Shown: piece by piece, positions 51,391-63,424 of the stretch
Layout: each line of letters opens with the position of its first letter
Position numbering within the stretch: position 1 is the first letter of the stretch
Source: a virus
Virus record (IMG/VR): IMGVR_UViG_3300032236_001613
Span: 248,001 to 312,000 of that record
Length of the DNA stretch: 64,000 bases
Direction: 5' to 3' (one strand)
Position numbers and translations under genes: made by a program
The notes under the pieces: model-generated
Database searches by the model: none
What the model was told of the DNA's origin: nothing
The model's input: the letters and a program-made list of their open reading frames with translations, nothing else

Positions 51391-51816
51391 GTGACTTGGT
51401 TCTATCAAGAACAAATTGTTACTGAACTGCCCGAAGATTGTGTTGGATTTATATATCTTATTACTAATACAATCTCGGGCCGTATGTACGTCGGAAAAAA
51501 ATTGGCTAAGTTTAGTAAAACCAAATATAAAACAGTAAAACTTAAAAACGGCAACAAGAAAAGAAAAAAAATTAAGAGCAAAATAGATTCAGATTGGCAA
51601 ACATATTATGGCTCCAGTGATGAACTATCAAAAGATATAGAAAAATTAGGCAAAGAAAACTTTCGAAGAGAAATATTACATTACTGTACTAGTAAGGCAC
51701 AAACATCATATCTCGAAGCAAAAGAACAATTCGACCGTCGTGTGTTAGAAACCAATGAATATTACAATGGTCACATACGTGTTAGAATCCATGGCTCACA
51801 TATAATCAAAAAATAG
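51391..51816 (+). CDS. GIY-YIG nuclease-like protein
   Basis: 141 aa. The core GFIYLITNTISGRMYVGKK (about 19-37) gives the two Tyr-containing strands of GIY-YIG, and SYLEAKEQF (about 107-115) supplies the conserved Glu. A basic insertion (KTVKLKNGNKKRKKIKSK) follows the first motif. The start is a GTG because the in-frame stop of the preceding region ends at 51387. The gene stands alone in one intact piece, so it is not obviously a homing endonuclease inside an intron, although it directly precedes a structured non-coding region. Confidence 0.78.
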   Translation: MTWFYQEQIVTELPEDCVGFIYLITNTISGRMYVGKKLAKFSKTKYKTVKLKNGNKKRKKIKSKIDSDWQTYYGSSDELSKDIEKLGKENFRREILHYCTSKAQTSYLEAKEQFDRRVLETNEYYNGHIRVRIHGSHIIKK

Positions 51817-51829
51817 GCAAATACACAGT

Positions 51830-52250
51830 TAAGGCTAGCATCGGCCAACCTCGGATGCCCATGATAACCACACGAAAGTGATGGGGACGGAAATTCTCTG
51901 CGCTGTACAGAGTGTTCAACTACTATCCTTTACAGGACGAAGATCGCAAACGCCGCGGTTTAGTTGTTTAAAAGAATTTAAAGGCACAAAGATGGGGAGC
52001 GAAACCCCGAACTATTATATAAGACTAGCGGGTATATAATAGTTACCGTCATAAAGAACGCTGCTCGAGGTACCGGATGACCGCCTCTGTAATGCAGTAA
52101 CGCTAGGGTTGTGATACTCAGATAATAATCACAGAAATCTTACCCATATGGTGGGTAAGTATGGCTGATTAATCTAGATAATCTTAAATCAGTTCTATCT
52201 TTTCTAGAAAATGGCTACGAGCGTGAGCGAAGTAGCGAGCTAGCGTAGCT
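51830..52250 (+). ncRNA. Candidate large structured RNA
   Basis: About 420-470 bases (51817-52293) have no convincing gene but at least eight hairpins. Perfect stems: 52010-52021 with 52033-52044 (12 bp, 11-nt loop); 52139-52146 with 52152-52159 (8 bp); 52110-52115 with 52128-52133; 52165-52170 with 52187-52192; 52214-52219 with 52244-52249; 51896-51900 with 51908-51912; GGGG/CCCC at 51994-52008; and CAC-GAAA-GTG at 51871-51880. GAAA tetraloop-like sequences read on the plus strand, which suggests the RNA has that sense. No tRNA T-loop, tmRNA tag frame, or group I/II core sequence was recognised. Strand and ends are inferred. Confidence 0.55.
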
Positions 52251-52261
52251 GGCTCTAATAA

Positions 52262-52269
52262 TATAAATA
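52262..52269 (+). promoter_or_regulatory. Late-type promoter box TATAAATA
   Basis: Exact T4 late consensus 24 nt before the ATG at 52294. The predicted start is about 52275, leaving a ~19-nt leader with a weak GTAGGAT ribosome site. It marks the following gene as late, as expected for a virion protein. Confidence 0.6.
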
Positions 52270-52293: not shown

Positions 52294-53007
52294 ATGAAAT
52301 TATCTGATGTGTTTTCCGAAAGTGCTCTTAATGAGTTAGGGATTATTAAATCTTTTAAAGCTGGATATCGAGCAGGTAAAAATAAAGTTCTAAATTTACC
52401 AACCGGATCACAAGTCGATAACGAACCAGCGCAAGCAACAACTAATCAAGCTGCACAACAGCAGCCTGCTCAACAGCCAAATGCTCAAAATACAACACAA
52501 CAACCTTCTCGCACAACGACACAAGCAGCAACTACTCCAGCGGAACCACCTACCGCTGCACAAAACATTGCATCTCAACAAGCACTTAATCAAAAATTAT
52601 CGGCAGGTAATCAAAACACTAACGATTATCTTAAAAGTATAGCTGCACAGATAAAGTCTGAGCCAGATACTAACAAGAAAATTGAATTAGGTAGAGAATT
52701 AATTAACTTTGTTGCAGATCGTCATAGTCAGCCTAACTGGGGGACTTTATCAGGCGTAGCTGGCAGTATAATTAAAAAGAATATACCGGATCCAAATTTT
52801 GTTAAGCCAGCATTAGAAAAAATTAAGGACGGTGGACATATCGGTACTGACGAATTAGAATCCATAAATTACATGCTTGAAACTGTAGGATTAAGCCTAT
52901 TAGACTTAGGATTAGAAGCTGTTCTAACAGAAAGCAAAGGTTCTTATATTTTAAGACGTGTAGTAGATACATCTATTTTAGATTTACGTAAGCTAGCAGG
53001 ACTATAA
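52294..53007 (+). CDS. Candidate internal head (capsid-targeted) protein
   Basis: 237 aa. N-terminal MKLSDVFSESALNE resembles short T4 capsid-targeting peptides and ends in LNE, a fit to the gp21 cleavage rule (L/I)xE. Residues about 40-95 are a Gln/Thr/Ala/Pro-rich linker (QPAQQPNAQNTTQQPSRT). About 100-235 is a folded helical domain. The last residues (SILDLRKLAGL) match the scaffold gp22 C-terminus (NILEIRKLAGLK). It has a TATAAATA late promoter and ends abutting the convergent gp51 gene. Internal head packaging is inferred from these peptide similarities. Confidence 0.6.
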   Translation: MKLSDVFSESALNELGIIKSFKAGYRAGKNKVLNLPTGSQVDNEPAQATTNQAAQQQPAQQPNAQNTTQQPSRTTTQAATTPAEPPTAAQNIASQQALNQKLSAGNQNTNDYLKSIAAQIKSEPDTNKKIELGRELINFVADRHSQPNWGTLSGVAGSIIKKNIPDPNFVKPALEKIKDGGHIGTDELESINYMLETVGLSLLDLGLEAVLTESKGSYILRRVVDTSILDLRKLAGL

Positions 53008-61218: not shown

Positions 61219-62394
61219 ATGTCACAGTTATTAAATGAAAGATGGTCCGAGACAAAGGAAGCTCTGCTTGAAGGCCTATCGGGTAATCGTCGTGCTTCTA
61301 TGCAGGTTTGCTTAGAGAACACACGCAAGTACTTGGCAGAAGCCGCAACAGCAGGAGCAACAAGCTCTGGTAACGTAGCAACACTTAATCGTGTTATTCT
61401 ACCAGTTATCAGACGTGTAATGCCAACAGTTATTGCCAACGAAATCATCGGCGTACAGCCAATGACAGGCCCTGTTGGGCAGATCCACACACTACGTGTA
61501 CGTTACGCCGATGGCGACGGTACTGTAGTAGCTGGCGAAGAAGCACTAAGCCCATTCAAGATTGCTGCTGCTTACTCCGGTAACGGCGTTGACGGCACAC
61601 CAAAAGCCGCTCAAACAGCACAACTTGAAGGTCAACCGGGTAAGAGAATGAGCATCCAGATTCTCAAAGCTCCAGTAGAAGCCAAGAGCCGCAAGCTCTC
61701 AGCTCGTTGGACATTTGAAGCTGCACAAGATGCACAGGCTCAACAAGGTATTGATATTGAAGCAGAAATTATGGCAGCACTAGCTCAGGAAATCACTGTC
61801 GAAATCGACCAGGAAATCCTAACTTCACTACGTGGTTTAGCTTCAGTTGAACAGTCATATGACCAAAGTCTAGTTTCTGGTACAGCAACATTCGTCGGCG
61901 ACGAACATGCTGCACTAGCAATTCAGATCAATCGCGTAAGCAACCTAATTGCACAGCGTACACGTCGTGGCGCAGGCAACTGGGCAGTTGTTTCAAACCA
62001 GGCTCTAACAATTCTACAGTCTGCAACTACAAGCGCATTTGCTCGTACAACAGAAGGTACATTTGAAGCCCCAACTAACACTAAGTTTGTTGGTACACTA
62101 AACGGTGCTATGAAGATCTATGTTGACAGCTACAAGGCTGACAGCGATGACAACAACCAGGTTCTAATCGGATACAAAGGCACAAGCGAAGCTGACGCAC
62201 CAGCGTTCTATTGCCCATACATTCCGCTAATGAGTTCTGGTGTTGTACTAGATCCAGCAACCTTCGAACCAGTCGTAGGCTTCCTAACACGCTACGGTTA
62301 TGTTGAACTCAGCAACACCGCAAGCAGCTTAGGTAACGCAGCTGACTACCTCGGTAAGGTCGCTATCGTAAGCGCAACAGTAAGCTTCAAGTAA
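61219..62394 (+). CDS. 23: Major capsid protein gp23
   Basis: 391 aa, shorter than T4 gp23 (521 aa). N-terminal propeptide of about 41 residues ends in YLAE (E41), a gp21 site, followed by AATAGATSSGNVATLNRVILPVIRRVMPTVIANEIIGVQPMTGPVGQIHTLRVRYA (in pieces), the conserved gp23 region. The ELEGQPGKRMSIQILK and FYCPYIPLMSS segments are also typical. AAGGAG ribosome site; a strong terminator follows at 62421. Codons lean to G/C-ended forms more than in neighbours, as expected for a highly expressed gene. Confidence 0.97.
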   Translation: MSQLLNERWSETKEALLEGLSGNRRASMQVCLENTRKYLAEAATAGATSSGNVATLNRVILPVIRRVMPTVIANEIIGVQPMTGPVGQIHTLRVRYADGDGTVVAGEEALSPFKIAAAYSGNGVDGTPKAAQTAQLEGQPGKRMSIQILKAPVEAKSRKLSARWTFEAAQDAQAQQGIDIEAEIMAALAQEITVEIDQEILTSLRGLASVEQSYDQSLVSGTATFVGDEHAALAIQINRVSNLIAQRTRRGAGNWAVVSNQALTILQSATTSAFARTTEGTFEAPTNTKFVGTLNGAMKIYVDSYKADSDDNNQVLIGYKGTSEADAPAFYCPYIPLMSSGVVLDPATFEPVVGFLTRYGYVELSNTASSLGNAADYLGKVAIVSATVSFK

Positions 62395-62671: not shown

Positions 62672-62752
62672 TAACAGTTCGCTCGAAAAGAGAGTTTATG
62701 CAGTACCCACTGCGTAGATCCTAGAACGATCTTATAAAATAAGGAGAAACAA

Positions 62753-63424
62753 ATGGGACGTCCGATTAAAAAGAGATTTTTTGCTGGCACAGCAGTTGTT
62801 GCTGACACTGCAGGTATGGGAGTTGTTGCACCAAACGGTGTTGCTATTCTTACAAGTGGTACTAATTTTACTATTGTACCGACAGTAACATTTAGCCAAC
62901 CAGATATTTTAGGTGGTACAGTTGCAACTGGACACGTTACAGTTAACGGAGCTGGTAATCTTGCTAGTTTTGTTGTTGATTCTAGCGGTTCTGGTTATAC
63001 ATTAGATCCTGATATTGTGTTAACAGGTTCAACAGGAACAGGTGCAACATTTAGTGTTACATTAGCAGGAGTTAGTAATACAGGAAAAATTACAACTTCC
63101 GCATACTTACCGAGAAAGTCGTCTGTTGCTAGAACATCAACAATTCTAAAGCAAGAATCGAGTCATCGTTATCTTGTGCAAAACAGAGACGGTGACGGCA
63201 TTTGTAAATTAACTGCATCTGGTAGTTTAACTGCTGGTCAAATGAGTATTACTGCAACTGATAGCGCAGGTGGTACATATTATGTAACAAAGTTAACATC
63301 TCGTAAAGCATTGTTAACTCCGATTAACGGAACACAGTTTCCTACTAACACTTATGCAAAATGGTTACGTTCTAGTGACGGCTCGCCAGTTGCAAATGTT
63401 AGTGTAACTATTCCTGTTGCTTAA
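62753..63424 (+). CDS. Head-associated structural protein with GSGYT modules
   Basis: 223 aa, beta-rich, Gly/Thr/Val-rich. Begins MGRPIKKRFF, has GSGYTLDPDIVLTG and TGTGATFSVTLAG (about 80-105), the same type of module as in the giant protein, then a Ser/Thr-rich C-terminal half (KLTSRKALLTPINGTQFPTNTYAKW in pieces). Position after gp23, with a strong AAGGAGAAAC ribosome site and its own terminator, suggests an abundant head protein such as a decoration protein. Function inferred. Confidence 0.7.
   Translation: MGRPIKKRFFAGTAVVADTAGMGVVAPNGVAILTSGTNFTIVPTVTFSQPDILGGTVATGHVTVNGAGNLASFVVDSSGSGYTLDPDIVLTGSTGTGATFSVTLAGVSNTGKITTSAYLPRKSSVARTSTILKQESSHRYLVQNRDGDGICKLTASGSLTAGQMSITATDSAGGTYYVTKLTSRKALLTPINGTQFPTNTYAKWLRSSDGSPVANVSVTIPVA

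Follow-up and report, generated by a model that had tools for sequence, protein, structure and literature searches.

HEARO and OMEGA RNAs are structured RNAs associated with nucleases (HNH/RuvC). Large RNAs are also carried by phages: GOLLD and ROOL are pseudoknotted and assemble into RNA-only nanocages (PMC12286853), and ICP1 produces an abundant non-coding transcript of ~800 nt (PMC7567579). The closest described relative of the locus studied here is Polynucleobacter-1, a motif of 141 nt reported by Weinberg et al. in 2010 and entered with a 'y' for cis-regulatory in the discovery table (PMC2864571). Besides that discovery paper, a bacterial genome paper was the only literature found to name Polynucleobacter-1 or its Rfam entry, RF01718. 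The current study examined a window of 64,000 nucleotides (the whole stretch of DNA analysed) from a 328-kb phage record, IMGVR_UViG_3300032236_001613. Comparison of related loci establishes a structured RNA in this window, together with its extent, strand, conserved place and a pair of coupled repeats, and indicates that positions 51825-52254 (+) are a structured non-coding RNA, neither a decayed gene nor an intron. The RNA and its previously described part are as follows:

51825..52254, + strand: full-length structured RNA (extended Polynucleobacter-1), ~430 nt, with 20 helices and 93 pairs in a 154-element alignment
51833..51969, + strand: 5' domain, RF01718 Polynucleobacter-1 (cmscan, 87.5 bits, model positions 1-141 of 141)

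The RF01718 match is full length, lies well above the gathering cut-off of 37 and covers the 5' third (137 nt) of the RNA. The 3' ~285 nt have no Rfam match, yet they are continuous with the RF01718 part across copies and loci; since both parts recur together, once more within this phage and in more than 200 IMG/VR loci, they are considered one RNA. Conserved covarying structure does not stop at 141 nt but runs on to 52254. The locus resembles Polynucleobacter-1 in the above-threshold match of its 5' domain and in its freshwater setting, while it differs in being ~285 nt longer than the described motif, in occurring in T4-like phages and in not having the appearance of a leader. The preliminary description, made from the letters of the window, had called the RNA unknown. 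This holds for two thirds of it, while the 5' 137 nt, which went unrecognised, are RF01718. Only that third appears to have been known already; the remaining ~285 nt, which comprise the core with its pseudoknots, a pair of repeats (R1/R2) and the 3' domain, appear to be new. A 141-nt Rfam fragment of obscure role is extended in this way to a complete ~430-nt RNA with a wide distribution among T4-like freshwater phages, and a structure model of the full RNA is ready for probing.

No Rfam model besides RF01718 matched the region in cmscan, even at E <= 1. The earlier reading that the region holds no tRNA, tmRNA, RNase P or group I/II intron agrees with the Rfam search and with a tRNA search, while its suggestion of GOLLD or ROOL is not supported, because RF01718 is the sole Rfam match and the window contains no tRNAs. 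An ornate phage RNA forming an RNA-only oligomer, in the manner of GOLLD and ROOL, is highly improbable: the RNA is likewise phage-borne and large, with several pseudoknots and an obscure function (PMC12286853), but it is shorter, has neither sequence nor covariance-model similarity to them and lies in a different genomic setting, with no tRNA within 64 kb, whereas GOLLD and ROOL are often found near tRNA islands. The ICP1 transcript is likened to it by description, both occupying an orf-less phage gap and having an obscure role; however, that transcript was detected by RNA-seq, whereas the RNA here is predicted from sequence comparison.

The second copy in the 328-kb phage lies at position 160251 of the record (RF01718, 91.2 bits), and the two copies align across the entire element, beyond the Rfam part. 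IMG/VR loci were gathered with a core pattern taken in the 3' half, GTACNGGNTNACCGCNTCTG; more than 100 were recovered, and they align from ~51825 to 52254. The family now counts hundreds of freshwater virus sequences. A blastn search with the RNA against 50,697 phage records gave no matches. By this search no cultured phage in the collection carries the RNA, which may be why it has gone unnoticed. A stricter core pattern found one match in 84,980 prokaryote genomes (GTDB), which is attributed to chance because it lies in GC-rich DNA and is not matched by the RNA model.

The view that the gap holds no convincing gene was borne out, as the sole internal ORF of at least 40 aa is a 53-aa GTG ORF (51878-52039), in a stretch where insertions and deletions among homologues break the frame. 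A degraded gene or intron was rejected. Folded as a single sequence, the region stands out only slightly (-126 kcal/mol, z -2.24, with 3 of 100 shuffles equally good); the question of a structured RNA is settled by sequence comparison. Among 55 sequences of the 3' half, 91.8% of cells were paired over 41 named pairs (78.7% when shuffled), 26 of these pairs were altered on both sides, and the covariation score was 0.427 (0.166 shuffled; slid controls at most 0.096). Because that structure was drawn from the same sequences, the weight is carried by the tests that followed. A tree-aware null, run on 154 elements with our own R-scape-like procedure and 30 simulations, yielded 13 pairs at E <= 0.05, including two formed by the R1/R2 repeat columns, and 21 standard pairs at E <= 1, with significant pairs along the full length. 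Covariation, which the preliminary description had itself named as the test of a structured RNA, thus strongly supports one. Helices grown from seeds at E <= 10 gave 20 helices with ~93 pairs and three pseudoknots, those resting on one weak seed being less certain. In the paired cells of this alignment G-U (1245) far exceeds A-C (281), which identifies the + strand as the RNA. The main elements of the model are listed below:

51825-51828 with 51902-51906, + strand: outer 5' helix, ACAG with GCTGT (79-91% paired, each pair showing 3-4 pair types)
51834-51836 with 51843-51845, and 51838-51842 with 51854-51858, + strand: H-type pseudoknot, GCT/GGC crossing GCATC/GATGC (80-98% paired)
51917-51922 with 51961-51966, + strand: helix CAACTA/TAGTTG, enclosing the inner hairpin GATCGC/GCGGTT (51942-51947 with 51955-51960)
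52010..52044, + strand: long hairpin whose loop joins the long-range pseudoknot (compensatory change in 12 of 12 pairs)
52025-52031 with 52100-52106, + strand: long-range pseudoknot, CTAGCGG with ACGCTAG (compensatory change in 6 of 6 pairs; 98.8% paired cells)
52048-52052 with 52077-52081, + strand: loop-loop pseudoknot, GTCAT with ATGAC, within the most conserved core
52061-52064 with 52094-52097, and 52067-52071 with 52083-52087, + strand: conserved core, CTGC/GCAG around GAGG(T)/(G)CCTC
52139..52159, + strand: hairpin separating R1 from R2 (77-99% paired)
52216..52254, + strand: 3' domain, with a TAC/GTA and GC/GC hairpin (52216-52234) and a hairpin AGCTAGC/GCTGGCT (52238-52254)

The 5' strand of the outer helix (51825-51828) falls outside the Rfam model. 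Under the tree-aware null, the H-type pseudoknot has two pairs at E <= 1 and more at E <= 10. Pairs unequalled in 30 simulations number three in the CAACTA/TAGTTG helix with its inner hairpin, two in the long-range pseudoknot and one in the loop-loop pseudoknot, the last being C-G in 111 elements and U-A in 40. The sequence of the conserved core, GAGGTACCGGATGACCGCCTC, is almost invariant, and its outer helix is compensatory; in the last hairpin six of seven pairs reach E <= 10, four of them E <= 1. The hairpin-rich gap described earlier is therefore real, but the element extends over 51825-52254 with ~20 helices rather than eight. The individual stems are as it described them, namely the 12-bp hairpin AACTATTATATA/TATATAATAGTT (~52010-52044) and the 8-bp hairpin CTTACCCA/TGGGTAAG (52139-52146 with 52152-52159), and GAAA-type loops occur at 51869-51880 and 51994-52008. 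At 52054, with 52142 and 52156, there is a further case of coupling by identity (alignment columns 250 and 353; AA, GG or TT); column 353 base-pairs with column 339, and the arrangement looks like a base triple.

The strangest constraint, of a different kind, concerns two short repeats:

52116..52126, + strand: repeat R1, ACTC followed by the 7-mer AGATAAT (52120-52126)
52172..52182, + strand: repeat R2, ATCT followed by the 7-mer AGATAAT (52176-52182)

The 7-mers of R1 and R2 are identical to each other in 211 of 212 elements, among which 12 versions of the 7-mer occur. By a parsimony count, made on a tree from which the R1/R2 sites had been left out, each repeat underwent 56 changes, and 56 of 56 fell on the same branches for both; only one intermediate was seen in the 212 sequences. 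Read position by position, identity stays near 100% throughout the seven sites and falls to 8% one base further on, and the 7-mers are flanked by a fixed CTC (R1) or TCT (R2) and by a mostly G/A difference. The pattern used for extraction prescribed CTC/TCT and, within the 7-mer, T at position 4, A at position 6 and either A or G at position 5. Positions 4 and 6 therefore carry no evidence, whereas positions 1, 2, 3 and 7 were free and position 5 half free. In an alignment made without this pattern (A3), CTC is invariant in R1 and TCT almost so in R2, and when tested against the tree-aware null, the leading two 7-mer sites are among the strongest pairs of the entire RNA. Later loci found with a different search pattern, some of them also among the 212, had R1 equal to R2 in 63 of 66 cases (shuffled mean 15.6), and of the three exceptions, two are probably mis-extractions. 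Extraction failed for eleven core matches: a false core, a match interrupted by a long insertion, L091 and L159, which are identical at 6 of 7 positions, and seven members of a single divergent clade. In this clade another short word, [TC]GCAG, agrees by eye between both places.

Two RNA copies in one phage (G000) carry AGATAAT and AGGTAAT, respectively, each copy being internally identical, which indicates that the coupling acts within a copy and weakens the case for a common trans partner of all copies in a phage. No third strand complementary to the 7-mers was found: matches of a copy's own type were not enriched inside the element, nor up to 2 kb away. Mixed A/G states, which wobble would permit, are absent, which argues against a shared base-pairing partner, and the sharp borders of identity argue against plain gene conversion. 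A genome-wide promoter-like motif was rejected (six sites in the window, two of them R1 and R2, against 2.6 expected). A GTG or ATG lies 15 nt 5' of the R2 7-mer (window position 52161), in frame with a TAA/TGA inside it, in 203 of 212 elements; mini-ORF ends were nonetheless rejected, since about one fifth of these frames (38 of 203) have an earlier stop and R1 frequently lacks a start. Base pairing, as judged from these comparisons, does not explain joint change to the same letters. It is possible, although tentative, that two 7-nt strands in each molecule must match rather than complement each other, either through parallel like-with-like pairing or through a strand exchange that needs or restores identity. 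We know of no described RNA family with such a constraint, and methods that seek complementary covariation alone would overlook or misread the signal. With ~56 joint changes and one exception, the repeats pose a sharp puzzle.

Direct contact or a DNA-level process may either one account for R1 and R2. In the latter case, site-specific strand exchange or repeat-directed copying would keep the repeats identical, with an RNA gene around them. Strand-exchange sites need a core of identical sequence, as found here, and the sharply bordered seven positions with their differing flanks and the scarcity of intermediates relative to changes would suit such a process. However, no recombinase gene was found in the conserved gene order (below), the R1/R2 flanks are not inverted repeats, the spacer between the repeats varies in length (mostly 47-59) and is still in every element read, and the constraint around the repeats acts at the RNA level; a DNA-level origin is considered decidedly unlikely.

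The flanks of the RNA are as the preliminary description had them:

51391..51816, + strand: SegE-like GIY-YIG endonuclease gene directly 5' of the RNA (PF19835, E 1e-32)
52262..52269, + strand: the next gene's T4-type late promoter, TATAAATA, outside the RNA and followed by an ATG at 52294

The conserved order is gp47, gp46, histone-like, GIY-YIG, RNA, variable gene and baseplate hub, where gp46 was named from tblastn matches and the other gp names are ones we take to apply. A GIY-YIG gene lies directly upstream in 89 of 107 RNA loci. Conversely, 80 loci were selected by the GIY-YIG protein alone, and the RNA lies downstream in 68 of the 74 with enough sequence, a sample mostly of one clade because these are the closest protein relatives. 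This linkage might suggest a partner, regulator or guide RNA of the endonuclease, similar to HEARO and OMEGA RNAs in that a structured RNA adjoins a nuclease gene. The whole surrounding gene order is conserved, however, so the linkage may be vertical synteny, which could lead one to overrate or underrate the significance of neighbours. In addition, the nuclease is SegE_GIY-YIG rather than HNH/RuvC, the adjacent ORF is not HNH, and the HEARO model has no match in the region. The RNA also occurs without GIY-YIG, both elsewhere and in the same slot beside a Holliday-junction-resolvase-like gene (L123 and L156), and phage Melnitz has a GIY-YIG relative without an RNA match nearby. An endonuclease pair is considered very unlikely. 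The resolvase-like family (F17) was seen in or near the usual GIY-YIG slot in L122, L123, L138, L156 and L161.

A cis-regulatory leader of the downstream late gene would fit the 2010 paper, which gives Polynucleobacter-1 as possibly cis-regulatory, and the next ORF, whose strand agrees with that of the RNA in 94 of 105 loci; the RNA may have a leader role in some phages for the latter reason. However, a late promoter consensus stands between RNA and gene (ATAAATA occurs 3' of the RNA in 76 of 111 loci, against 14 of 111 shuffled), the downstream genes belong to several sequence families, and the next ORF (at least 60 aa) is convergent in 11 of 105 loci, ending ~60 nt past the RNA in L043, L048 and L127. 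The second copy in the 328-kb phage (L001) has other neighbouring genes, and the copies in G001 also lie in other contexts. The RNA is probably not a leader, a role we regard as unlikely. A search with the downstream 237-aa protein of the window found no relatives. The G001 record (327 kb) contains four RNA copies (L264, L268, L270 and L271), at least one of them beside a run of small paralogous ORFs (F9).

A stand-alone RNA is a better fit than a leader, since the RNA occurs without GIY-YIG, before convergent genes and 5' of a late promoter that belongs to the next gene itself. It is displaced from the GIY-YIG gene in 8 of 68 loci, seven by ~1 kb, with an unrelated ORF between in the five read; its retention here, beside a resolvase-like gene and in a second copy elsewhere marks it as an independent unit. 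Our preferred reading, ranked above both a next-gene leader and an endonuclease guide and considered somewhat better than an even prospect, is that T4-like freshwater phages carry a stand-alone non-coding RNA, which would act as a scaffold needing R1 and R2 to be equal within one molecule. We infer that it has its own transcript, made from the + strand either jointly with the gp47-gp46-histone-GIY-YIG genes or directly after them, and ending ahead of the next gene's late promoter. Comparison shows that three pseudoknots hold its body, with R1 and R2 flanking a hairpin and carrying the same 7-mer. Function would require the two repeats of a molecule, acting jointly, to share one sequence; the likeliest cause would be mutual strand contact or interchangeable use in one complex.

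Gaps of 1-1.5 kb without annotated genes occupy a similar location, following gp46 and a resolvase, in Pseudomonas phage MIJ3 (L171, 7014-8529) and Sinorhizobium phage Phosso (L170, 7407-8422). They were rejected as copies of this RNA, since neither Rfam nor the model of this RNA matches them, and are possibly other large RNAs. Within the window, Rfam RF02980 (freshwater-2 RNA) matches positions 62678-62755 on the + strand with 59.5 bits against a cut-off of 49.9; the match is flanked by a capsid-like gene (61219-62394) and an ORF at 62753. One phage contig with the extended Polynucleobacter-1 RNA has an alphaproteobacterial/permuted tmRNA match (L125, 3911-4304, 92.5 bits) and a tRNA.
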